Of a DNA stretch of 64,000 nucleotides, positions 5,097 to 37,667 are shown in pieces (position 1 is the first letter of the stretch; every line of letters starts with the position of its first letter). Where the stretch lies: positions 62,001 through 126,000 of the forward strand of contig JAGUWD010000007.1 of the NCBI GenBank assembly GCA_020062545.1, read 5' to 3'. A program made the position numbers and the translations under genes. The stretch is from Thermodesulfovibrionales bacterium. GTDB taxonomy: Bacteria; Nitrospirota; Thermodesulfovibrionia; Thermodesulfovibrionales; Dissulfurispiraceae. Under the pieces are notes generated by a model, which did no database searches, was not told where the DNA came from, and saw only the letters and a program-made list of their open reading frames with translations.

Positions 5097-6137
5097 TCAC
5101 CATATCATTGACTTATAGAGCTCTATTATCATGTCCTGAATTTCTGATATAAGATGAAATGCCTCTTTCAAGCTCTTTTTTTCGAGGTTGCTCAATTTGT
5201 TCGGGTTTATGAAATTGTCCGGAGTCCTGCCTGTCTTTATCTGTTCATACTGGTTCTGGATCCTTAGGAGCATGATGAATTCAAATGCCTGCTCAAGTTC
5301 ATCCGCATACTCCTGCACCATGGTATGTTTGTCTCTTAATACATTTATCCTTTCGAGGGTGGATGTCTCCTTTATTCCCTTTTCGAGGGCAAAGAGCCTC
5401 ACAATGTCTATCAGCGGGGCGATGCCTTTTACCTTAAGATTGAGTTCGTCCTTGTGTTCGCCGCTCTTTTCCACCACAAATGTCTTCAAAAAACCGATGG
5501 GAGGCCTGTTCTTTATGGCCATATTTGCCAGATACCCCAAAAAGACCTTCTGGCCTTTGAGCATTGATATCAGAAAATCCCTTAAGGTGTCAGAGAGCTC
5601 TGTTTCGCCGTAAACAGGCCTGAAATCAAAAAAGGTTACAGAATTTAATACGGCATCGGCAGTGGGTGTTGATATCCAATTTGAGAAGTATTTTTTCCAT
5701 ACCTTCAGAGGCTGGCACCACTTTGGGTTGCTCGCCATATAATCAGCAGGGCATAAAGGAAAACCGCACTTTATAAGGCTGTCCCGTACAAATATGGTAA
5801 AGTCAGAGAAATATTTCTTTACCCTGTCTTCTTCCTCAGGTGTTGTATCAGCATATATAATTGCATTGTCCTGATCTGTTTTAAATGTCTGTTCTTTGCG
5901 ACCCTCGCTGCCGAATGCTATCCAGCAATAAGGGACTGGAGGCTGTCCATATTTCTTCTCGGAGATCTCCAATACCTTCCTAACAAGCCTGTCATTTAAC
6001 TCTGTTATAATCTTTGTGATGTTGCTCGCTTTTGCGCCTTCATGAAGAAGCAGGCCGACTATCTTGCTTATTTTTCCGGATACTGGAATGAGACCCTCTA
6101 TGGTCTGCTGGTTCTCTATGTCCTTTGCAAAGGATAG
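5097..6137 (-). CDS. DUF294 nucleotidyltransferase part of a frameshifted cNMP/CBS/DUF294 signalling protein
   Basis: This frame holds the C-terminal half of a protein that begins at 6994. The nucleotidyltransferase motif GSEGRKEQTFKTDQDNAI lies just after the internal ATG at 5972, followed by the DUF294 C-terminal helical domain ending KSMIW. The frame is open upstream of that ATG to at least 6137 and encodes the expected linker (DIENQQTIEGLIPVSGKIS), so the true coding unit reaches back to the G-run at 6137-6141 (CCCCC on the coding strand). One extra base there would join it to the upstream frame and give about 632 residues, the normal length for this family. Such proteins are putative nucleotidylylation regulators. 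It is either a split gene, a decayed gene or a sequencing error. Confidence 0.82.
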   Translation of the reverse strand, partial: LSFAKDIENQQTIEGLIPVSGKISKIVGLLLHEGAKASNITKIITELNDRLVRKVLEISEKKYGQPPVPYCWIAFGSEGRKEQTFKTDQDNAIIYADTTPEEEDRVKKYFSDFTIFVRDSLIKCGFPLCPADYMASNPKWCQPLKVWKKYFSNWISTPTADAVLNSVTFFDFRPVYGETELSDTLRDFLISMLKGQKVFLGYLANMAIKNRPPIGFLKTFVVEKSGEHKDELNLKVKGIAPLIDIVRLFALEKGIKETSTLERINVLRDKHTMVQEYADELEQAFEFIMLLRIQNQYEQIKTGRTPDNFINPNKLSNLEKKSLKEAFHLISEIQDMIIELYKSMIW

Positions 6138-6994
6138 GGGGATTTGCCCTGAAGGAGCATCAGGTCGTGATTTGTAAGAACGCCTTCAAGGTTCCCGTCC
6201 TTAATAACAAGGATATGATGAACATTATGCCTTATCATCTTCAGAACAGCTTCAAAACAATAATCCCTGTAATCTACCCTTATGAGGGGCAGGCTCATGA
6301 TATCTTTAACAGGCTCGGATACATTACGACCTTTTGCTACCACCTTCTCCCTGAGGTCCCTGTCCGTTACAATTCCAACAGGAAGTTCCTTATCATTCAC
6401 AATCACCAATGAGCTTATCTTGCTTTTTGCCATTATCTGAGCTGCTTCCTGTATTGTGGCCTCTTCTCTAACAGTAATAACCTTTCTTGTTGCTATCTCG
6501 CCAACCTGTGTTGTAAACAGCAGGCGGTCGCTTCCTCCGTAGAAGAGGCTCTTGTTGTGCATTTCTTTATAAGTCCTGTCTATGTATTTTGTGAGATGGG
6601 ATTTAAGAAAATACTCTGTAAATACAGGATTTGAATCGAGGAGTTTTAAGGCTGTTTCTTTACCCAAAAGATAGCATAAGGTGTCATCAATGGCTGTTAC
6701 ATTCGCCCTTACCCTGTCTTTGCCTACAAGGGAGAGAAAACCAAAGGTATCGCCTTCACCCCTGTAATCAATAATCACCTCTTCTCCGTCCTCCGAAACC
6801 ATGGAGACTTTTACCCCGCCCTTTTTTATAATCCTGAGGTATTCGCTTGGCGGGCCGTCCTGCTTGAGAATAAGGGTATTTTTTGGATAAAACTCCATAG
6901 AAATCTTTCCAGCAACTGTCTTTAATGTTGCCTCATCAAGGAACTGGAAAGGCGGCACATTCTTTAAAAAGCCTATGATATCTTCTATAAGCAT
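6116..6994 (-). CDS. Cyclic-nucleotide-binding and CBS-domain signalling protein (N-terminal half, frameshifted)
   Basis: A 292-residue frame with an N-terminal cNMP-binding beta-roll (about residues 12-130, with PPSEYLRIIKKGGVKVS and RGEGDTFGF) and two CBS repeats (about 165-285, ending GVLTNHDLMLLQGKSP). After that point the frame leaves the family pattern and stops within eight residues (YPLQRT), while the expected continuation is present in the next frame. It would be first in the acetate operon, and its ATG is preceded by TTGGGGTAAG and by a sigma-54-type promoter. Proteins of this architecture occur next to dnaQ-like, DUF485 and actP genes and are thought to sense a nucleotide ligand. 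Confidence 0.86.
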   Translation of the reverse strand: MLIEDIIGFLKNVPPFQFLDEATLKTVAGKISMEFYPKNTLILKQDGPPSEYLRIIKKGGVKVSMVSEDGEEVIIDYRGEGDTFGFLSLVGKDRVRANVTAIDDTLCYLLGKETALKLLDSNPVFTEYFLKSHLTKYIDRTYKEMHNKSLFYGGSDRLLFTTQVGEIATRKVITVREEATIQEAAQIMAKSKISSLVIVNDKELPVGIVTDRDLREKVVAKGRNVSEPVKDIMSLPLIRVDYRDYCFEAVLKMIRHNVHHILVIKDGNLEGVLTNHDLMLLQGKSPYPLQRT

Positions 6995-25568: not shown

Positions 25569-28500
25569 TCAATTCAGATTTGCTGTTTCAGTAAACTGCA
25601 GTGAGATTGCCTTTGACGCACCAGGTTCTTCCATGGTGATGCCGTATAAATAGTCGGCAACCTCCATAGTTGTCCTGTTATGAGTAATCACGATAAACTG
25701 CGTCTCTTTGGAAAGCTCCTTTATCATCTGGGCGAATCGGACAGTATTGGACTCATCCAGCGGTGCGTCTGCCTCGTCGAGGATGCAGAGGGGGCTCGGT
25801 TTTATCAAGAATCCTGCAAACAGCAGGGCAAGGGAGGTCAATGCCTTTTCCCCACCTGAAAGCAGATTGATGTTCTGGAGCTTTTTACCAGGAGGTTGGG
25901 CTATTATGTCTATGCCTGATTCGAGAACATTTTCTTCATCTGTAAGAATGATGTCCGCCCTCCCTCCTCCGAAAAGGATGGTGAAGACCTCCGTGAATTT
26001 TGTCCTTAATGAATCATAAGCCTCTCGGAGCTTTCGTCTCGTTGTTGTGTTTATTCTGCTTATCGCCTCTTCCAGTTCCGCAATGGACATGGTTAGATCC
26101 TGCTGCTGCTTTGTGAGGAAGTCGTAGCGGTTTTTGAGTTCTTCGTATTCTTCGATAGTGCCGAGATTTACGGGCCCGAGTTCCCGTATTTTGGTATTGA
26201 GTTCATCGATTTTATTTTCATCTTCTGCTGCATCAAACCCCTCTACCTCTATAATCTCGGTCTTTATATCAAGCCCATACTTCTGGTTTATTGATGCTTC
26301 GATATTCTCTATCCTGAGCCTGTTTTCCACTGCCTTTGAATTAAGGTCAGAAAGCTGCTGGGATATCTCGTCTATCTGAGCCCTGATATTTCTGAGGATA
26401 TTGCCCTTCGAGACTATTTCTTGATTTTCCGAACTGATCGCATCCCTTAACTTTGTCCGCTCGACCTGCATGTTGTCGACATCCATGACTATTGATTTTA
26501 TTTCCTCTTCGAGTTTCTGGAGTTCTGCGGTCGATTCTTTTATTCTTTCATCTGCATCCTGAATTTCCTTTATTGCCTGTTCCTTTTTATTTTCAAACTC
26601 TCTGATGGTATCACTGATTGCATCCCTTTCCCTTCTGAGTGCATCTATTTTTTCCCTGTATGAGGTCATAGAGAGCTTTAATTCGGTGAGGTGAGACCGG
26701 GCATCTTCGTAATCTCCTTTTGTAATCGAAAGTGATTCCTGCAGTGCTGCTATGCTCTGGTTGACTTTGTTAAGCTCGCCTTCGAGTCTTCCGATTTCCT
26801 CTGTTTTGGACTTCAGAACACTATCCAGAGAACCCATTTCTTGAGAGATAGTCGTTATTTCAGCATTCAGGAAGGAGAGCCTCCTTGTCTCCCTATCCAT
26901 CTCCTCCTGATGACTTTTCAGGGAGTGTTCTATAAGTGATAGCTGTTTTTCTGTCTCGTTGATCGAATCCTCGGTATTCTTTAGAGATTCTTTTCTGTTT
27001 GTTAGATCATTGCTGTAAGAGTCGAGCATTGCCTCCATGTTTTTTATTCTAAACTGCTTCTCGTCGATTGTCTGTTGGAGTTCTTTTATCTCTCTTTTCC
27101 TTTTCAGGATATCTTTTCCGTGCCCTGCAAACAACCACCCGTCGCTGGTTATAATCTCCCCATCGAGGGTAACAAAAGACAGTGACGGGTGATGGGTGAC
27201 GAGCGACGAGTTAAGTATCTCAAAAGCACTCTGTAAGTCTTTCACGATATATGTATTATCCAGAATATTATCAGGTATTTTGTGCGCCTCGCTGGTTTCA
27301 AATGTTACAAAGTCTGATGCCTTGCCAATAATGTTGTCATGAGTAATATTTGCTGTCGTCTGTCCTCTGTCCTCTGTCGTCTGACTTCTGTCGTCTGTCC
27401 TCTGTCTTCTGTATAATATTGCTGTCCTTCCAAGATTCTTCTCTTTGACAATATCTATTACCGAGATGGCGTCTTCGATATTATCTATTATCAGGGCATT
27501 GATTTTTTCTGAAAGGGCAGCCTCGATGGCCATTTCATAATCCTTATTTGCATTAATGATATCGGACAGAACCCTGTATCCACGTCCTTCGGATACGAAG
27601 TCCGCGATGGATTTGTCCATGATTAATTCCTTTAATGAATTAAGCCTGGATATATTGGAGGCGAGGTCTTCTCTCTCTTGAGAAAGGAGCGTTTTTTTGC
27701 TTTCAATATCATCCTTTAACTGCGCTATCTCTGAGGTTATTGCATCTTTTTCGGATTTAAGACTCAGGATATTATCTGTTTTTATCTTTATGGATTCTTC
27801 GGCTTCTCTAATGGCCTTTTCCAGTTCATCTACCCCTGTTTTTATGGTCTCCATATCCTTGAGTGCAACCGATTCCCGGTATTTCATGTTCTCAAGGGAA
27901 GACTGGAGCTTGTGGAACTCATTCTTTTTATTGCTGAGATTTTCGGATACCTTGAAGAGCTCTTTTCTTTGATTTTCAATCTCGGATTCCTTGTCTGTAA
28001 TCTTAGTCTCAATGTCCGCTATCCAGTCCTTCTTTTCGTTCAACTCCATAGATATAGTTTCTATGCTGGACAACAGTGCGTTTTCTGTGTCGTCGAGTTC
28101 TGAAATCTTTCCTGAGAGTTCTTCTTTTTTATTCTTTATTTCTTCCTGCTGATTGGTAAGCCTGATGATATCCTCTTTTTTATTTTCGATGTTTGTTTTT
28201 AGCACCGCTATGTGTTTTTCGGAGTCCGATATGGACCGTTCTTTTTCATGCAGGTTGTTTTCGAGTTCTGTCAGGGCATTCTCTCTTTCTGCAAGCTCAA
28301 GGCGTTTGGTTTCTATGAGGTTTTCTAAGGTGGAGAGTTCGCTCCTCTGAGAGGCATCTGTTTCCCTCAGTTTTTCGATCTCTGATAATATCTCACTCAG
28401 AATCGTGCTGAGCCTTGTGTACTCCCTCTTTGCCGTTCTTAGTTCCACATCTTTCAGCTCGCCCATCAATCTCTTGTATCGCTCGGCCTTTTTTACCTGC

Positions 28501-29138
28501 CTGTCGAGGCTGTTTATCTGGCGTTTTACTTCATATACAATGTCGTTTATCCTCTGTAAGTTCTGTTTTGATGATTCGAGCTTTGAAATAGCCTCTGCCT
28601 TTCTGACCTTGTATTTCATTACCCCGGCTACCTCTTCTATAAGGAACCGCCTTTCATGGGGTTTTGTATTGATAATTTCTCCTATCCTGCCCTGGTCGAG
28701 TATGGAGTAGCTTTTTACATCGAGCCCTGTGTCGAGGAATATATCCTTTATATCTTTAAGTCTGCACGGTTTCTTGTTTAAGAGGTATTCGCTTTCGCCA
28801 GACCTGTACAGTCTTCTGGCAACATAAATTTCATCAGCGCCTCCATCGGGTGAGCCGTTACCCCCAACCCCCTCTCCAGTCTGTGAGATGATCAACGTAA
28901 CCTCGGCCATTCCCTTCTGCTTTTTTGTGGCTGACCCCTGGAATATGACCTCTTCCATTTTTTCGCCTCGCAGGCTCTTTGCGCTCTGCTCTCCAAGCAC
29001 CCACCTGAAGGCATCCACCACGTTGCTTTTCCCGCAGCCATTAGGGCCTACGATACAGGTAATGCCGCTATGGAGTGGGAACAGTGTCTTGTCAGCAAAG
29101 GATTTGAACCCGATAAGCTCGATCTGTCTGATTTTCAT
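25569..29138 (-). CDS. smc: Chromosome segregation protein SMC
   Basis: A full-length SMC ATPase of 1189 residues from the ATG at 29138 (MKIRQIELIGFKSFAD); an ATG four codons earlier is possible but the AAGGG ribosome site favours the second. Walker A is GPNGCGKSNVVDAFRWVLG near residue 30. Two long coiled coils flank a hinge at about 510-680. The ABC signature LLSGGEKALTSLALLFA is near 1089 and Walker B CILDEADAPLDESN near 1115. With ScpAB it organises and segregates the chromosome. The hinge region carries two inserts made of 7-base tandem units (27353-27412 and 27184-27211). A glycine-rich insert (GEGVGGNGSPDGGAD) lies in the N-terminal head. Confidence 0.96.
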   Translation of the reverse strand: MKIRQIELIGFKSFADKTLFPLHSGITCIVGPNGCGKSNVVDAFRWVLGEQSAKSLRGEKMEEVIFQGSATKKQKGMAEVTLIISQTGEGVGGNGSPDGGADEIYVARRLYRSGESEYLLNKKPCRLKDIKDIFLDTGLDVKSYSILDQGRIGEIINTKPHERRFLIEEVAGVMKYKVRKAEAISKLESSKQNLQRINDIVYEVKRQINSLDRQVKKAERYKRLMGELKDVELRTAKREYTRLSTILSEILSEIEKLRETDASQRSELSTLENLIETKRLELAERENALTELENNLHEKERSISDSEKHIAVLKTNIENKKEDIIRLTNQQEEIKNKKEELSGKISELDDTENALLSSIETISMELNEKKDWIADIETKITDKESEIENQRKELFKVSENLSNKKNEFHKLQSSLENMKYRESVALKDMETIKTGVDELEKAIREAEESIKIKTDNILSLKSEKDAITSEIAQLKDDIESKKTLLSQEREDLASNISRLNSLKELIMDKSIADFVSEGRGYRVLSDIINANKDYEMAIEAALSEKINALIIDNIEDAISVIDIVKEKNLGRTAILYRRQRTDDRSQTTEDRGQTTANITHDNIIGKASDFVTFETSEAHKIPDNILDNTYIVKDLQSAFEILNSSLVTHHPSLSFVTLDGEIITSDGWLFAGHGKDILKRKREIKELQQTIDEKQFRIKNMEAMLDSYSNDLTNRKESLKNTEDSINETEKQLSLIEHSLKSHQEEMDRETRRLSFLNAEITTISQEMGSLDSVLKSKTEEIGRLEGELNKVNQSIAALQESLSITKGDYEDARSHLTELKLSMTSYREKIDALRRERDAISDTIREFENKKEQAIKEIQDADERIKESTAELQKLEEEIKSIVMDVDNMQVERTKLRDAISSENQEIVSKGNILRNIRAQIDEISQQLSDLNSKAVENRLRIENIEASINQKYGLDIKTEIIEVEGFDAAEDENKIDELNTKIRELGPVNLGTIEEYEELKNRYDFLTKQQQDLTMSIAELEEAISRINTTTRRKLREAYDSLRTKFTEVFTILFGGGRADIILTDEENVLESGIDIIAQPPGKKLQNINLLSGGEKALTSLALLFAGFLIKPSPLCILDEADAPLDESNTVRFAQMIKELSKETQFIVITHNRTTMEVADYLYGITMEEPGASKAISLQFTETANLN
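27184..27211. repeat. Short tandem repeat in smc hinge
   Basis: Imperfect 7-base units (GGGTGAT, GGGTGAC, GAGCGAC) in frame encode SSLVTHHPSLSF in the hinge domain. Confidence 0.6.
27353..27412. repeat. Eight-copy 7-base tandem repeat in smc hinge
   Basis: Eight CTGTCNT-like units in a row, read without a stop as the hydrophilic segment RRQRTDDRSQTTEDRGQTT. Because 7 is not a multiple of 3, three units (21 bases) encode one 7-residue period, and this is visible in the peptide. The clearest array in the window. Confidence 0.9.
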
Positions 29139-29309
29139 AATGCCCTTCATTTTACGCAGTAGACACCAAAACGGTCAAGCTAAAGTTTAAAATAAAGCTA
29201 ATATAATAATAAATTTTTTTTATTTGACGATTCCTGTATTTCTATATTAGCCTGTAATGCCTTTTGGTGAATTTTTAAGCCTTTAAAATCAAATAAAGAG
29301 GAGGATTTT

Positions 29310-30494
29310 ATGCCAAAGAAGTATGAGACTCCCCTGTTAGACGAGCTGGAAAAAGGCCCATTCCCAAGCTTCGTAACAGAGATCAAGAAAGCAGCAGCAA
29401 AGAATGACATGGCTGCTGACGAGCTTGGCCAGCTTGAGAAGTCATACAGGGACAAGCGTGGTTACTGGAAACACGGCGGTATCGTCGGTGTCCGCGGTTA
29501 TGGTTCGGGCGTTATCGGAAGGTATTCATCCCTTCCCGAGGAATTCCCCAATGTTGCAAACTTCCACACGGTGAGAATCAACTCCATCGCAGGATTTTTC
29601 TACACATCAAAGTTCCTGAAAGAGGCATGCGATATCTGGGATAAATATGGAAGTGGTCTCACAAATCTTCATGGTTCTACCGGAGACTTTGTTTTACTTG
29701 GAACAACTACAGAAAATCTCGAGCCGATTTTTGCTGAGTTCTCATCAAGAGGCTGGGATCTTGGAGGCTCCGGTTCTGCTTTGAGAACACCGAGTTGCTG
29801 TGTTGGGCCGGCAAGGTGCGAGTGGTCAAATATCGATACCCTCGACATTACATACAGTATTACACAGGAGTGGCAGGATGAAATGCACAGGCCTGCATTC
29901 CCTTATAAATTCAAATTCAAGACAGCAGGATGCGCAGTTGACTGTATTGCATCAATTGCCCGTGCAGACTGCTCTATTATCGGCACATGGAAAGGCAATA
30001 TAGCGGTTGATCAGGCCGAGGTTGCCAACTACGCAAAGAAGGGCATGAATATTCAGGAAGAGATCGTCAATATGTGCCCCAGCAAGTGCATGAGTTATGA
30101 CGGAAAAGAATTGAAGATAAACGATGCAGACTGTGTAAGGTGTATGCACTGTATCGCAAAGATGACAAAGGCATTAAAACCGACCGGTGAGAAGGGCGCA
30201 ACAATCCTCATCGGCAGCAAGGCGCCGTTTGTTATCGGCGCAACACTCTCATGGGTAATCGTTCCATTCATAAAGATGGAGCCGCCGTATGATGAATTCA
30301 AAGACCTTATCAGGAAGATGTGGGAGTTCTGGGATGAGCACGGAAAGAACAGGGAAAGGATTGGCGAGCTTATCATCAGAAAGGGCATGAGGGAGTTCCT
30401 CGAGTATATTGGTATTGAGCCCCAGGCTCAGCAGGTTAAAGAGCCGAGAAGAGACCCATTCTTCTTCTGGACAGAAGCAGATTTACAGAAATAA
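29310..30494 (+). CDS. dsrA: Dissimilatory sulfite reductase alpha subunit
   Basis: A 394-residue DsrA. The sirohaem-[4Fe-4S] ligands appear as CCVGPARCEW (about residues 161-168) and AGCAVDC (about 207-211). The inserted ferredoxin domain has MCPSKC and DCVRCMHCIAKM (about 254-285). With DsrB it forms the cytoplasmic enzyme that reduces sulfite and loads DsrC with a sulfur atom as trisulfide. The ATG follows GAGGAGGATTTT. Co-occurrence with dsrD points to the reductive direction. It is divergent from smc; the 159-base gap is very AT-rich with a TTGACG at 29224, but I could not place a good -10 box. Confidence 0.97.
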   Translation: MPKKYETPLLDELEKGPFPSFVTEIKKAAAKNDMAADELGQLEKSYRDKRGYWKHGGIVGVRGYGSGVIGRYSSLPEEFPNVANFHTVRINSIAGFFYTSKFLKEACDIWDKYGSGLTNLHGSTGDFVLLGTTTENLEPIFAEFSSRGWDLGGSGSALRTPSCCVGPARCEWSNIDTLDITYSITQEWQDEMHRPAFPYKFKFKTAGCAVDCIASIARADCSIIGTWKGNIAVDQAEVANYAKKGMNIQEEIVNMCPSKCMSYDGKELKINDADCVRCMHCIAKMTKALKPTGEKGATILIGSKAPFVIGATLSWVIVPFIKMEPPYDEFKDLIRKMWEFWDEHGKNRERIGELIIRKGMREFLEYIGIEPQAQQVKEPRRDPFFFWTEADLQK

Positions 30495-30528: not shown

Positions 30529-31599
30529 ATGGCATTACCACAGAGAAGAACAGATATAGGCCCACCTCATTATAAGGATTTTTTGCCTCCGGTAATCCAG
30601 AAAAACTATGGAGACTGGAAGTATCATGAAATCCTGAGTCCGGGTGTAATGGTTCACGTTGCAAATAGCGGTGACAAAATATGGTCTGTAAGAGTAGCAT
30701 CCCCAAGGCTTCTCAGCACAGATACTATAAGAGATATGGCAGCTATTGCAGAAAAGTACTGTGGAGGTTATATCAGATTTACGACAAGAAACAATGTGGA
30801 GTTTCTTGTCTCCGATGAGAAGAATCTTGAGCCGTTACAGAAAGAGCTCAAAGATAAAAAATATATGATGGGCGGCATCGGAAACAGGATAAGCAATATT
30901 GTCCATACTCAGGGATGGGTGCACTGTCATTCCGCTGCATCCGATGCATCAGGTCTTGTTAAGGTATTAATGGATGAGTTTGCCGACTACTTCACAACAA
31001 AGGAAACTCCTAACAAGGTGAGGATGGCAGTTGCATGCTGCGTGAATATGTGCGGCGCGGTTCACTGCTCTGATATAGCTGTTGTTGCTATCCACAGAAA
31101 AGTGCCGACCATCGATCATGATAAGGTAAAGAACATGTGCGAGGTGCCATCAACAATTGCTGCCTGCCCGACAGGCGCAATAAGCCCCGAACCTTCGAAG
31201 AAAAGCGTGAAGATCAACGCAGACAAATGCATGTACTGCGGTAACTGCTTTACAGTATGTCCTCCTATCGAAATCCATGACCCGGAGTACGACGGAGTTG
31301 CAATCGTAGTAGGCGGCAAAGTAGGAAACCTCAGGAGTAATCCAAAGTTCTCCAAGCTTGCTATTCCTTTTATTAAGAATAATCCTCCGAGGTGGCCTGA
31401 AGTTACTTCAGCAGTAAGGAAGATCCTCGATGCCTATGTCGCAGGCGCAAAGAAGCATGAAAGGGTCGGAGAATGGATAGAGAGGATAGGCTGGGAGAAG
31501 TTCTTCAAGATTACAGGATTGCCATTCACATTCCAGCATATCGATGACTTCGTAATTGCAAGGGAGACATTCAGGACAGCAGCAACATTTAAGTGGTAA
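30529..31599 (+). CDS. dsrB: Dissimilatory sulfite reductase beta subunit
   Basis: A 356-residue DsrB, 34 bases after dsrA, with GGAGGAAAGTT before the ATG. The cluster-ligand segment is [14 protein letters not shown] (about 168-179) with a further cysteine pair in [17 protein letters not shown]. The ferredoxin domain [15 protein letters not shown] is near residue 232-246. The C-terminus ends in the typical aromatic stretch FRTAATFKW. It holds the catalytically active sirohaem in characterised DsrAB complexes and docks DsrC. Confidence 0.97.
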
Positions 31600-31690: not shown

Positions 31691-31906
31691 ATGGAAAAGG
31701 AAGAAGTAAAGAAAAAGATTTATGAGTTGGTGGAGAAGTCCATGGGCAAGAAAAAGCTCAAATCAAGTGACATCCAGAAGACCATTTCAGCAGAGGCAGG
31801 TATCTCGAGGGATGAAGTCAAGGATGCATTGAAGGATCTCATTGACGAAGGTAAACTTATTTATACATACTTTGGCGGTAGCTTTGTAGAGATCCCCCCA
31901 AAATAA
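31691..31906 (+). CDS. dsrD: DsrD winged-helix protein
   Basis: A 71-residue protein, the normal DsrD length: EEVKKKIYELVEKSMGKKKL, then SDIQKTISAEAGISRDEV and the C-terminal strand GKLIYTYFGGSFVEIP. DsrD is an allosteric activator of DsrAB in sulfite-reducing organisms and is absent from most sulfur oxidisers that use reverse Dsr, so it supports the reductive direction here. GAAAGGGGTG precedes the ATG. A terminator follows. Confidence 0.95.
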   Translation: MEKEEVKKKIYELVEKSMGKKKLKSSDIQKTISAEAGISRDEVKDALKDLIDEGKLIYTYFGGSFVEIPPK

Positions 31907-31936: not shown

Positions 31937-31975
31937 AAGGCAGTCCACCGGAAAAGTGGCAGACTGCCTTTTTTG
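31937..31975 (+). terminator. Terminator after dsrABD
   Basis: AAGGCAGTCCAC (31937-31948) pairs with GTGGCAGACTGCCTT (31956-31970) with a two-base bulge, followed by TTTTTTGTTTTC. It ends the dsrABD message. Confidence 0.87.
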
Positions 31976-32017
31976 TTTTCACGGATCTCTGTTGTAACAA
32001 ACAGAAACAAAATCCGG

Positions 32018-32023
32018 TATAAT
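32018..32023 (+). promoter_or_regulatory. -10 box for the HAMP / cytochrome module
   Basis: A perfect TATAAT lies 56 bases before the ATG at 32080, just after the dsrD terminator. The -35 region 17 bases upstream is poor (TAACAA), so an activator may be needed. Confidence 0.4.
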
Positions 32024-32079: not shown

Positions 32080-32655
32080 ATGAAGCCTTTAAACGTTGTA
32101 AATACGGCATTAAGAACAAAGCTGACAGCAGCAATTATATTGTTTCTGGTGCTTATAGCCTCATTGAGTGTTGTATTTTTCTATTATTACACCGACAGCG
32201 AACTCGGAAAAACCTATGCCCAGAAGGTATTCATGCTTCCCCAAATTAAGGCAATAATCATGAGTAACAGCCTGTATATCTACGCCTTATTTGCACTCGT
32301 CGCAACTTTGGGAATAGCTGCAATCGTTATTCTGCACACGCACCGGGTTGTAGGTCCGCTTATAAGAATGGAGAGGCTTATGGAGAAGATGTCGATGGGT
32401 GATTTTGAAGAGGCAGTGAGGTTTAGAAAAATGGATGCAGTTCATCCCCTTGCTGATGCACTGCAAAATGTAGAAATAAAATATAAGGAGAGATATTCTG
32501 TTATAAGGGAGTCAATACATGAGATGCATAGAGATTCGATCGAGATGTACGAGTTTCTTCAGAGTGGTGATATTGAGGCTGCAGAAAACAAAAGGCATTA
32601 TATTAGGAAAAAGGCCGAAGACATCGGCAAGCTCCTTTCCGGGATCAAGTTATGA
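32080..32655 (+). CDS. Membrane HAMP-domain protein without output domain (first copy)
   Basis: A 191-residue protein with two transmembrane segments (about 16-40 and 66-90), a short periplasmic loop between them, then a HAMP domain (VVGPLIRMERLMEKMSMGDF) and a helical tail. There is no kinase, methyl-accepting or cyclase domain. Its stop codon overlaps the start of the multihaem cytochrome gene (ATGA), so the two are coupled. A second protein of the same plan follows that gene. I infer that the pair anchors or senses the state of the cytochrome; no family name with known function is recognised. Confidence 0.8.
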   Translation: MKPLNVVNTALRTKLTAAIILFLVLIASLSVVFFYYYTDSELGKTYAQKVFMLPQIKAIIMSNSLYIYALFALVATLGIAAIVILHTHRVVGPLIRMERLMEKMSMGDFEEAVRFRKMDAVHPLADALQNVEIKYKERYSVIRESIHEMHRDSIEMYEFLQSGDIEAAENKRHYIRKKAEDIGKLLSGIKL

Positions 32656-33422
32656 AGGTATTTTTAAGTTTGGCATTTATATCTATTTTATTCATTATCA
32701 GTGTGCATGCTGCTATTCAATCCATTCATTCTTTCTCGGAAAATGAGTGCATGAACTGCCACATTGATTACAAAAAGGATCCAGGGTCATTGAAGGCCCC
32801 TGTTACACTGTTATGCAAAAAATGTCATGAGGACATAACAAGCACATCGTCTCATCCATCTGATATTTATCCTGTTTCGACCAGGATTCCTCCTGACCTT
32901 CCTCTTCACAACGGTATGGTTACATGCAATACATGCCATAATATTCACAGAGAGAGATTTTTAACATCGGGCGAAAAGACATACTTTCTCAGAAGAACAA
33001 AGCTGGGAAGGGCGTTTTGTGTTTCATGCCATATGGTTAAGCCCGAGGGGCATGTAGAGACATTAGTAGCGGCACATCCGAGCAAGAAATATAAAGTAAT
33101 GGATAGATCAAAAACTATTGATCCTATATCCATGGAATGCATCGGATGTCATGACGGAATACAGGGTAGCAATGTCGAACACAGGTTAGGTCCTGGCATA
33201 TGGAGCCACGAGAGTTATTCCCATCCTATAAGTGTTGATTACAATGTCAGCAGGATGAAAGGGAAGAGATTAAAACCTATTTCGATGGTCGACAGGAGGA
33301 TAAGGTTTTTTGATGGAAGGATTGGATGCGGTACATGTCATGACCTGTATTCAAAACTGCCCAAAAAACTTGTAATGAGCAATAATAGAAGCAAGCTTTG
33401 TTTTGAATGCCATGATATATAG
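32652..33422 (+). CDS. Heptahaem c-type cytochrome
   Basis: A 256-residue secreted protein with an N-terminal signal (MKVFLSLAFISILFIISVHA) and seven CxxCH haem-binding motifs in order: CMNCH, CKKCH, CNTCH, CVSCH, CIGCH, CGTCH and CFECH. Extra histidines between motifs can act as sixth ligands. It should be periplasmic, loosely like NrfH/doubled-CxxCH cytochromes in spacing, but no specific family is assigned. The position between two HAMP-type membrane proteins, inside the dsr locus, suggests a redox-sensing or electron-transfer partner of the sulfite-reduction pathway (inference). Confidence 0.88.
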   Translation: MKVFLSLAFISILFIISVHAAIQSIHSFSENECMNCHIDYKKDPGSLKAPVTLLCKKCHEDITSTSSHPSDIYPVSTRIPPDLPLHNGMVTCNTCHNIHRERFLTSGEKTYFLRRTKLGRAFCVSCHMVKPEGHVETLVAAHPSKKYKVMDRSKTIDPISMECIGCHDGIQGSNVEHRLGPGIWSHESYSHPISVDYNVSRMKGKRLKPISMVDRRIRFFDGRIGCGTCHDLYSKLPKKLVMSNNRSKLCFECHDI

Positions 33423-33443
33423 ATTAAGCAGGGAAGGCATGAA

Positions 33444-33998
33444 ATGAAAAGAAAACAATACATAACTCACAAAAGCTACCAGAGAGGAGTTGTATTGCGG
33501 ATTGTCCTGATATGCGCCATAGGTCTACTCATAAATCTCGGCATTTTTAACTTTCTTTCGTACAGAGAGGTCGAATCATTGAGATGGAGAATGCATATCC
33601 CGGTAAATACAATCGGAGATATTATCGGTCAATATCTCATATATTCGACTATCCCATCTGTAGCCCTTGTAGCGATAGCACTCTTAATATATTTCAGGCA
33701 TCTAATAAAGAATACCGACCGGATGTTATACGGCTTGAAAAACGATATAGAGAAGGTAGCAGACGGAGACCTTTCGTTTAGTGTCTCATTGGATAAAAGA
33801 GACGATTTTAATAATATATCCGGCGGTTGCAACAGGATGATAGGTTCTTTCAGGGATAAGTTCTCGGCATTAAAAGTAAAAATGCATGACATAAATGGAA
33901 TATTAGAAGACATTGAAAACGTAAAGGATAAACAAGCTCTAACCCAAAAGACTCGGCTATTAATAGATACCCTTGAGCGTCTCGAGAAGGAAGTCTGA
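33444..33998 (+). CDS. Membrane HAMP-domain protein without output domain (second copy)
   Basis: A 184-residue protein with the same plan as the gene at 32080: two membrane segments (about 17-40 and 62-85), then a HAMP-like stretch (NDIEKVADGDLSFSVSLDKR) and a coiled tail ending in TLERLEKEV. The N-terminus is basic (MKRKQYITHKSYQRG). The two copies are similar in design but not close in sequence, so they may form a heterodimer rather than being a recent duplication (inference). It starts 21 bases after the cytochrome stop codon. Confidence 0.8.
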   Translation: MKRKQYITHKSYQRGVVLRIVLICAIGLLINLGIFNFLSYREVESLRWRMHIPVNTIGDIIGQYLIYSTIPSVALVAIALLIYFRHLIKNTDRMLYGLKNDIEKVADGDLSFSVSLDKRDDFNNISGGCNRMIGSFRDKFSALKVKMHDINGILEDIENVKDKQALTQKTRLLIDTLERLEKEV

Positions 33999-34034: not shown

Positions 34035-35420
34035 ATGAAAAACCATCCAAGGCTGGTCATTGCCGGAGTCAGAGGCGGCAGCGGAAAGACAACCCTCTCC
34101 CTCGGCATAATTGCTGCGTTAAGATCCCGGAAAGGTCTGAAGGTCATTCCATTTAAAAAAGGCCCTGATTTCATAGATGCAGGATGGATGTCTGTTGCTG
34201 CAAAAAATCCATGCTACAATCTCGACCCTTTTCTTATATCGAAGGAAAAGGTTTTAAATTCTTTTACTTTGCATTTTACAGGCGATATAGCAATTATAGA
34301 AGGCAACAGGGGATTATATGATGGCATGGATGCAGAAGGCTCATACAGCACGGCAGAACTGTCAAAGCTTCTAAAATCCCCTGTCATACTGATTGTTGAC
34401 TGCACAAAGATGACGAGGACAGCAGCAGCTGTGGTATTGGGCTGCATGAATCTCGACAGAAATGTCGAAATAAAGGCAGTAGTTTTAAATCAGGTGGCAG
34501 GCAGCCGTCATGAATCTGTGGTGCGTTCGTCCATAGAAAAGTATTGCTCATTACCAGTGCTCGGTGCGATACCGAGATTGAATTCAGGAGAGTTTCCAGA
34601 GCGGCATATGGGGTTAATACCTCACCAGGAGCATCATGACACAGGGAATGCACTCTCATTCGTGGAAGACATAGCAAATAAATATCTTGACCTTGACAGG
34701 ATTTTGAGCATAGCAATGGAAGCAGAACCGATAAATAACAGGCACGAGTTGCCCATGGCCCATAGCCTATCGTCTGCCGTAAGGATCGGCGTAATAAGGG
34801 ATTCTGCTTTCCAGTTTTATTATCCTGAAAACATCGAGGAGCTTGAAAAGAACGGCGCAGAGATTGTGGAGATAAATGCTCTCGAAGATAAAAACCTGCC
34901 GGATATCGATGCCCTTTACATAGGAGGGGGCTTCCCTGAAACAAATGCCATAACGCTTGCAGAAAATAAAGACTTCAGGAGTTCTGTGCGCAGTGCAGCA
35001 GAGAAAGGACTCCCTATTTATGCTGAGTGCGGAGGACTTATGTTTTTGGGAGACTCTATTGTAATTGATGATAAGAAATACCCTATGGCAGGTATTTTCC
35101 CGATAATCTTCGAGATGAAGAAAAAACCACAAGCGCATGGCTACACAATCGTTGAGGTAGAAAAAGAGAACCCATTTTATCCAGTAGGAACAGTATTGCA
35201 CGGACATGAGTTTCATTATTCTGCTGTTGCCAGCATATCAGAAAACGGCAGTGCATTTACGGCCTTTAGAATGAAGAGGGGGCATGGCATAAAGAATAAA
35301 ATGGACGGGATATGTTATAAGAATGTATTTGCAACTTATACCCATATACACGCCCTCGGTGCAACAGAATGGGTTAATGGACTTATAAATAAGGCAAAGG
35401 AGTTTAAGAGGGTAAAATGA
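34035..35420 (+). CDS. dsrN: Sirohaem amidase DsrN (CbiA-family a,c-diamide synthase)
   Basis: A 461-residue CbiA/CobB-family amidotransferase: N-terminal ATP-binding domain with VRGGSGKTTLSLGI, FKKGPDFIDAGWMS and AIIEGNRGLYDGMD; C-terminal class-I glutaminase domain with nucleophile Cys in YAECGGLMFLGDS and HGHEFHYSAV near the end. Its place inside the dsr locus marks it as DsrN, which amidates sirohaem for DsrAB, rather than the corrin enzyme. A second CbiA is present in the cobamide operon at 55710-57116, which fits division of labour. ATGA overlap couples it to the next gene. Confidence 0.9.
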   Translation: MKNHPRLVIAGVRGGSGKTTLSLGIIAALRSRKGLKVIPFKKGPDFIDAGWMSVAAKNPCYNLDPFLISKEKVLNSFTLHFTGDIAIIEGNRGLYDGMDAEGSYSTAELSKLLKSPVILIVDCTKMTRTAAAVVLGCMNLDRNVEIKAVVLNQVAGSRHESVVRSSIEKYCSLPVLGAIPRLNSGEFPERHMGLIPHQEHHDTGNALSFVEDIANKYLDLDRILSIAMEAEPINNRHELPMAHSLSSAVRIGVIRDSAFQFYYPENIEELEKNGAEIVEINALEDKNLPDIDALYIGGGFPETNAITLAENKDFRSSVRSAAEKGLPIYAECGGLMFLGDSIVIDDKKYPMAGIFPIIFEMKKKPQAHGYTIVEVEKENPFYPVGTVLHGHEFHYSAVASISENGSAFTAFRMKRGHGIKNKMDGICYKNVFATYTHIHALGATEWVNGLINKAKEFKRVK

Positions 35421-37076: not shown

Positions 37077-37667
37077 GTGTCATCTTTACAGGGTATCAGG
37101 AGTCTGAATGAACTCCTGTCGGAAAAAAAGCAGGCCATTTTGGAAAAATGGTTTGACTCGGTATTAAAGACGTATCCTCACGACTCTGCTAAATTCCTTA
37201 AGAGACAAAAAGACCAATTTGCCAACCCGGTAGGGAGCACCATTTACAGAGGGATGGGTTCTCTTCTCGATTTGATCGTAAACAGCGCTGACACAGATAA
37301 CATAATAAAATCCCTTGACGAGATTATAAGGATAAGGGCAATTCAGGATTTTACACCTTCACATGCCCTTGCCTTTGTTGTCGAGCTCAAGAGGGTTGTC
37401 AGGGAAGAAATAAAAGGCGAGACCTGCGCATCGCAATTAATCGATGAATTGCCGGAATTTGATCGCAGGGTAGATGGCCTTTTACTGCTGTCCTTCGACA
37501 TATATATGAAATGCAGGGAAAAGATTTACGAGCTTAAGGCCAATGAACTCAGGAACATGACATTGAAGCTCGTGGAAAGGGCAAACCGTATATTCGAGGC
37601 AAAGTATCGCAATGTTGACCTTGAAGATATAATTTCACAAGGCAATAAAACAGAAAGAGGTGAGTAG
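37077..37667 (+). CDS. RsbRD N-terminal-domain protein linked to dsrMKJOP
   Basis: A 196-residue soluble helical protein beginning at a GTG right after GGGAGGAGGG. The region LSEKKQAILEKWFDSVLKTYP through FVVELKRVVREEI matches the globin-like RsbRD N-terminal domain that often stands directly before dsrM in sulfate reducers. Its stop codon abuts the dsrM ATG. Such globin-like sensor domains could report redox or gas ligands to the complex, but no function is demonstrated. An imperfect short repeat (GAACAGTCCAACAGTCC) precedes it at 37037. Confidence 0.82.
   Translation: MSSLQGIRSLNELLSEKKQAILEKWFDSVLKTYPHDSAKFLKRQKDQFANPVGSTIYRGMGSLLDLIVNSADTDNIIKSLDEIIRIRAIQDFTPSHALAFVVELKRVVREEIKGETCASQLIDELPEFDRRVDGLLLLSFDIYMKCREKIYELKANELRNMTLKLVERANRIFEAKYRNVDLEDIISQGNKTERGE

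Follow-up and report, generated by a model that had tools for sequence, protein, structure and literature searches.

Must a gene that lies inside a dsr locus take part in sulfite reduction? In the window (the whole stretch of 64,000 nucleotides analyzed here), three genes and nothing else lie between dsrD and dsrN: one for a heptahaem cytochrome (CYT), flanked by two for membrane proteins with a HAMP domain (H1 and H2; Table 1). The preliminary description of this DNA proposed that the trio might sense the periplasmic redox state or form a transmembrane electron or signal device tied to sulfite reduction. We find that the trio is a real, conserved and apparently undescribed module whose connection with the dsr genes is positional, and that it probably acts in redox signalling or in electron transfer, in connection with cytochromes of the type associated with extracellular electron transfer (EET). 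The trio is most likely a split redox receptor, the input and output of which we infer.

On rereading, the coordinates, gene order and strand originally given for the trio proved correct, and the gene reading of the window bore out its placement between dsrD and dsrN. The ATGA coupling of H1 to CYT can be read directly, and CYT and H2 are separated by 21 bp. Likewise sound were the count of seven haems, given seven CXXCH motifs and a hydrophobic N-terminus, and the view of H1 and H2 as two-helix HAMP proteins without an output domain, to which both hydropathy and family profiles point. A dsrJ gene was also matched among the genes that flank the trio. As side observations on the same locus, a protein with an RsbRD N-terminal domain, and thus a stress-regulator domain within the dsr locus, is encoded between dsrC and dsrM (37077-37667), a position that is kept in congeners and in the sister genus, and a large SMC-like gene on the minus strand (25569-29150) diverges from dsrA, congeners having a similarly sized gene there.

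Table 1. Genes and signals at the dsr locus, in positions of the window.
Feature	Position	Strand	Basis or description
dsrA	29310-30494	+	gene reading of the window
dsrB	30529-31599	+	gene reading of the window
dsrD	31691-31906	+	weak profile match, context right
Intrinsic terminator, 3' of dsrD and 5' of the trio	31937-31970	+	fold of -17.9 kcal/mol (z -2.25) with a T run 3' of it
Putative trio promoter	31994-32023	+	GTAACA, 18 nt, TATAAT; consensus match 10/12; tentative
H1, 191 aa	32080-32655	+	TM1 ~14-36, TM2 ~65-85, HAMP ~88-139, C-terminal helical tail
CYT, 256 aa, exported heptahaem c-type cytochrome	32652-33422	+	seven CXXCH, seven conserved distal His
ATGA overlap of H1 stop and CYT start	32652-32655	+	direct sequence reading
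H2, 184 aa	33444-33998	+	TM1 ~15-40, TM2 ~63-85, degenerate HAMP ~86-138, C-terminal helical tail
dsrN, CobB-type	34035-35420	+	gene reading of the window

The CXXCH motifs of CYT are located at residues 33, 55, 92, 123, 163, 226 and 250, and all seven are conserved across 78 relatives. Distal histidines are present at residues 26, 68, 99, 134, 142 and 191 in every one of the 78 and at H186 in 76 of them, the remaining histidines not being conserved in this set. A CXXCH motif and a second conserved histidine for each haem are the marks of a multihaem bis-His cytochrome c (c3/c7-like), and CYT has both; its sequence predicts seven bis-His haems, with putative ligation and pairing. Pfam matches to Paired_CXXCH_1 and Cytochrom_c3_2 place it near cytochrome c3/c7 and paired-CXXCH proteins. 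Compared with solved structures, the CYT profile retrieved only OmcE and one other multihaem chain (~1e-6), and the OmcE nanowire was also the best solved match in a fold search with the CYT model (pLDDT 81). This match is weak (Foldseek E 0.53; VIA Z 4.7, rmsd 4.0, 97 residues), and we do not take kinship between CYT and OmcE as proven by it. The hydrophobic N-terminus, a few residues ahead of the first conserved histidine, may act either as a signal peptide or as an anchor.

For the window proteins taken singly, the HAMP assignment is weak; for the H1 and H2 families, it is solid. With Pfam, window H1 reaches E=0.06 (14 bits, against a cut-off of 25 bits) and window H2 gives no HAMP match; among relatives, HAMP is matched in 20 of 54 H1 and 29 of 52 H2 proteins. 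Aligned profile to profile, H1 and H2 match canonical HAMPs encoded in the genome of the window with 97-98% probability, and a search of that genome with the H2 profile retrieved H2, H1 and 35 other HAMP places, the last all in open frames of at least 345 residues. A HAMP preceded by a transmembrane (TM) helix is found by profile at the family level, the window proteins alone lying below the Pfam cut-off. Hydropathy indicates two hydrophobic helices in each protein, and CXXCH is absent from both. The two families are homologous over 198 columns, from the N-terminus through the TM helices, HAMP and tail (E 4e-29), and on this alignment H1 and H2 are full-length paralogues of TM-HAMP-tail layout without an output domain. 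A same-chain cytoplasmic output domain of the chemoreceptor or sensor histidine kinase type is absent from both families, whose chains stop ~50 residues past the HAMP. An AlphaFold2 model of the H1 monomer (54 sequences, pLDDT 87) has helices at residues 9-38, 46-105, 122-162 and 165-188, which map to TM1, to TM2 continuing as the first HAMP helix and, beyond a connector of 16 residues, to an extended second HAMP helix and a returning helix; given this layout, the tail would be a short helical hairpin. A fold search with this monomer returned unrelated helical matches only.

Scanning GTDB species genomes, we obtained 80 named loci, from Nitrospirota and Desulfobacterota as well as a few other lineages. 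The order H1-CYT-H2 on one strand is the same throughout, in dozens of Nitrospirota and Desulfobacterota genomes. Among 81 CYT proteins, that of the window included, H1 directly adjoins CYT in 72 cases and H2 in 71, and some of the non-adjacent cases are contig ends or involve an intervening gene. Because 47 loci keep the 4-nt overlap of H1 and CYT and gene order is constant, the arrangement reflects more than chance. CYT was found in 43 of the 296 Nitrospirota genomes sampled and in 18 of 297 from the phylum Desulfobacterota, whose carriers have H1 and/or H2 beside CYT in nearly all loci examined. Furthermore, the pairwise distances of H1, CYT and H2 correlate (r 0.81-0.86, compared with permuted maxima of ~0.12), as expected for co-inherited genes. 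At the level of sequence, the trio is a unit across two phyla or more.

It would be tempting to regard H1 and H2 as remnants of chemoreceptors or kinases that decayed next to a cytochrome gene, as the HAMP of window H2 is degenerate and falls below Pfam thresholds. However, a length of ~190 aa, the gene order and the overlap are kept across phyla at 20-30% identity, which already refutes this idea and leaves it hardly credible. The preliminary description itself had named two ways in which it might fail, namely that the three genes are not conserved together or that the HAMP proteins are truncated versions of chemoreceptors; since the trio is conserved and its divergence covaries, neither applies. 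Two long frames were discarded: the 506-aa H2 of locus L210, which looked like a fusion to an output domain, is an artefact whose frame covers a stretch of N plus a separate NHL gene, and the 467-aa frame of L213 is an overlapping reading frame. Elsewhere, in loci L019, L020 and L022, a pentahaem cytochrome gene precedes one for a lone short HAMP-like protein, a pair that is possibly a smaller cousin of the trio, and in L025 and L026 short two-TM H2-like proteins stand beside a SurA/PPIase-like and an unknown secreted protein, without a cytochrome.

Whether the trio serves dissimilatory sulfite reduction specifically, as a sensor of redox state or an electron device, can be judged from the dsr loci themselves. 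In favor of this idea are the dsrD-dsrN position in the window and in L069 and L070, and the presence of dsrA in 38 of the 43 Nitrospirota carriers compared with 133 of 296 genomes overall (p 2e-10). However, the association in Nitrospirota is confounded by class, because nearly all listed genomes of the class have dsrA, and the pattern is reversed in Desulfobacterota, where dsrA is present in 4 of the 18 sampled carriers and absent from 14; we therefore reject genome co-occurrence as an argument for a Dsr role, and the co-occurrence only with dsrAB that had been put forward as support for such a role does not exist. In a separate check of 29 of the genomes behind named loci, dsrA was found in 23. 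Three congeners (G001, G002 and G003) and a genome of the sister genus (G024) have dsrA-dsrB-dsrD-dsrN-DVU0298-dsrC-rsbRD-dsrM in the same order with no trio at the site, and among the four only G001 has a trio at all, which is divergent and shares a contig with dsrA at a distance of ~11 kb. Besides that of the window, L069 and L070 are the only dsr-linked trios (2 of the 80 named loci). The terminator, moreover, precedes the trio: a terminator-like element follows dsrD in the four genomes lacking the trio at this site and also in L070, which has it, and the trio lies 3' of this element both in the window and in L070, with a near-identical promoter-like TATAAT stretch 5' of H1 in the two. Promoter consensus matches in the region are not enriched over shuffles, so the putative trio promoter is tentative; the window trio would have its own transcription unit, possibly shared with dsrN. 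The proposed tie to sulfite reduction thus does not survive the otherwise identical dsr loci of congeners, the rarity of dsr linkage and the carriers without dsrA. We consider a Dsr function largely refuted and very improbable, and the position of the trio among the dsr genes looks incidental; a place within a dsr locus does not by itself make a gene part of sulfite reduction.

The divergence of the trio between the window and L069/L070 (72-90% identity) resembles that of flanking genes (58-95%), so that the trio is probably old at this site in the family, other members having lost it or never acquired it. Horizontal arrival of the trio is no more likely than shared ancestry at the site followed by losses. 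In congener G003, the place of the window's trio between dsrD and dsrN is occupied by ~630 bp with inverted repeats (GTTGAGCGAT...ATCGCTCAAC; L182, ~6077-6708), perhaps a MITE-like insert.

Gene neighborhoods and co-occurrence link the trio to multihaem genes of the EET type. Another multihaem gene is present in the flanks of 51 of the 80 loci. Recurrent neighbors are an 11-haem cytochrome with a match to OmcE in its N-terminal part (E 6e-38); a 13-haem cytochrome with a match to one chain of 6r2q (E 2e-28; the printed label of the chain is odd), which we take to be the MtrCAB complex, a reading that agrees with the DmsE/MtrA-type NCBIfam match of the same cytochrome; NHL propeller lipoproteins; and a long candidate outer-membrane barrel, whose alternation pattern is only marginally above that of shuffled sequence. 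In several Desulfobacterota lacking dsrA, the trio sits in the middle of a cluster of 11-haem, 13-haem, barrel and NHL genes. Among dsrA-positive Nitrospirota, stratified by family, the trio is associated with the 11-haem cytochrome (OR 17, p 4e-6), with the 13-haem cytochrome (OR 5, p 0.008) and with either of them (OR 9, p 6e-4), where genomes are treated as independent within families and relatives are profile matches above threshold, some of them partial. The genome of the window (G000) has an EET-like cluster on another contig (C32, 51663-78000; L239 and L240), with a 13-haem MtrA-like and a 10-haem cytochrome (697 aa), tetrahaem, NHL, PPIase-like and ResB/CcsA-like genes and a barrel candidate, as well as a 511-aa kinase with one CXXCH that adjoins an NtrC regulator; the window trio would report on this system. 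G003 and G024 have neither the trio nor relatives of the 11-haem and 13-haem cytochromes. There are exceptions: G002 has an EET-like cluster with no trio detected, and G028 has the trio with no 11-haem relative detected. The trio marks EET-type clusters in Nitrospirota and Desulfobacterota, lineages that have been studied mostly through their sulfur metabolism.

The genes around the trio bear on what it does. Genes directly 3' of H2 and on the same strand are the more informative ones: they include those for a Cache-sigma54 activator (L131 and L144), a diguanylate cyclase (L140 and L231) and a receiver-HD-GYP protein (L083). In the wider flanks, up to ~6 kb away, 30 of the 80 loci have histidine kinase, NtrC-type or sigma54 genes, and a nearby kinase that was examined has a HAMP of its own. 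Across loci, no single output partner is conserved. The commonest gene directly 3' of H2 is a tetrahaem cytochrome (~19 loci), which fits electron transfer better than signalling. GspE-like genes follow at once or nearly so after the trio in L071, L073, L079, L080, L084, L086 and L130, mostly with GspF-like and pseudopilin-like genes, and kinase-like proteins with one CXXCH, candidate c-haem kinases, stand beside the trio in L079, L080 and L075.

HAMP domains are conformational relays, and we know of no other function for them. Because of this, because H1 and H2 are full-length paralogues whose divergence correlates with that of CYT, and because regulator genes lie directly 3' of H2 and in the flanks, we give close to an even chance to the reading of the trio as a conserved inner-membrane module for redox signalling, one that accompanies EET-type cytochromes and stands outside the Dsr system. 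This redox receptor is preferred only moderately to a role in electron transfer or anchoring, given that tetrahaem genes are the commonest 3' of H2. In the latter case, which we hold to be somewhat unlikely, H1 and H2 would anchor CYT at the inner membrane as a relay from a quinol oxidase or the periplasmic pool to outer-membrane conduits, and the HAMPs would serve dimerization only, as may hold for Geobacter Cbc5. The tetrahaem gene right after H2, the multihaem genes in the flanks, the clusters that include the trio among 11-haem, 13-haem, barrel and NHL genes, an N-terminus of CYT that could be an uncleaved anchor, and the 7-haem and HAMP-annotated subunits of Cbc5 all fit this role. However, the trio lacks a b-type cytochrome, a quinol site and a conserved TM haem ligand, and anchoring would hardly need two conserved HAMPs with tails. 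An electron wire through the membrane was rejected: there is no conserved His or Cys within the TM helices of H1 and H2, which makes electron passage through them unlikely. Of the original proposal of a sensor or electron device, periplasmic redox signalling is still the best reading, and transmembrane electron passage is unlikely.

The direction of signalling might also be reversed. LapD is a HAMP protein that works inside-out, and by analogy the tails of H1 and H2 might sense a cytoplasmic signal, with the HAMP pair altering access to CYT or aiding the assembly of a cytochrome complex. GGDEF and HD-GYP genes adjoin the trio in a few loci, and genes for ATPases of the type II secretion/pilus type lie 3' of H2 in several, both in favor of this idea; however, neither link is general, and Pfam detects no EAL or GGDEF remnant in the tails. 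We regard such a role as improbable.

Under the preferred reading as a redox receptor, H1 and H2 would pair via their HAMP domains into a heterodimer to which CYT docks from the periplasmic side. The periplasmic cytochrome pool would set the redox state of CYT, which in turn would shift the conformation of the HAMPs, and the cytoplasmic tails of H1 and H2 would act on a separately encoded regulator that differs between lineages. It is possible, though less likely than not, that the trio represents a split receptor of a new kind, in which a heptahaem sensor and an output-less HAMP heterodimer as relay are joined to lineage-specific outputs (a sigma-54 activator, a diguanylate cyclase or an HD-GYP protein) that regulate EET. 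Little is known about redox sensing of the periplasmic cytochromes in EET bacteria, and the trio, compact and widely conserved, is a testable candidate.

No description of an H1-CYT-H2 trio was found in the open-licence literature, in line with the preliminary statement that no such system has been described; that statement nevertheless needs qualification in view of Geobacter Cbc5, whose subunits include a 7-haem cytochrome and one that is annotated as HAMP (PMC7894505). The trio often adjoins MtrA-like, barrel-like and NHL genes, which relates it to the porin-cytochrome conduits MtrCAB, Oet and Pcc, but is itself an inner-membrane and periplasmic set with no porin or outer-membrane part; in the EET papers searched, we found no mention of HAMP. 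Af1503 of Archaeoglobus is, like H1 and H2, a membrane HAMP protein without an output domain, and HAMP is known as a conformational relay, but Af1503 is a single protein for which no cytochrome partner is reported (PMC3585426). The c-haem chemoreceptors GSU0582, GSU0935 and DcrA share with the trio a periplasmic c-haem input and a transmembrane signalling protein, but in them a single haem belongs to a PAS-type domain that shares its chain with the output (PMC3460858, PMC8396549). Such chemoreceptors carry haem domain and HAMP on one chain, whereas H1 and H2 have no CXXCH, the seven haems of the trio are on a separate protein and an output is absent. The closest precedent in gene content is Cbc5 (cbcEDCBA), a putative menaquinol:cytochrome c oxidoreductase that comprises 7-haem CbcA, HAMP-annotated CbcD and an 11-12-haem cytochrome and is tied to EET (PMC7894505, PMC10989804, PMC11434368). 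By gene content, the two have in common a 7-haem c-type cytochrome and a HAMP-annotated subunit. However, a b-type cytochrome is part of Cbc5, whose HAMP subunit also bears a haem-protein annotation, whereas the window trio has no b-type subunit (the b-type dsrM is equally present in congeners without the trio) and instead combines two HAMP proteins without haem motifs with CYT in the fixed order H1-CYT-H2.
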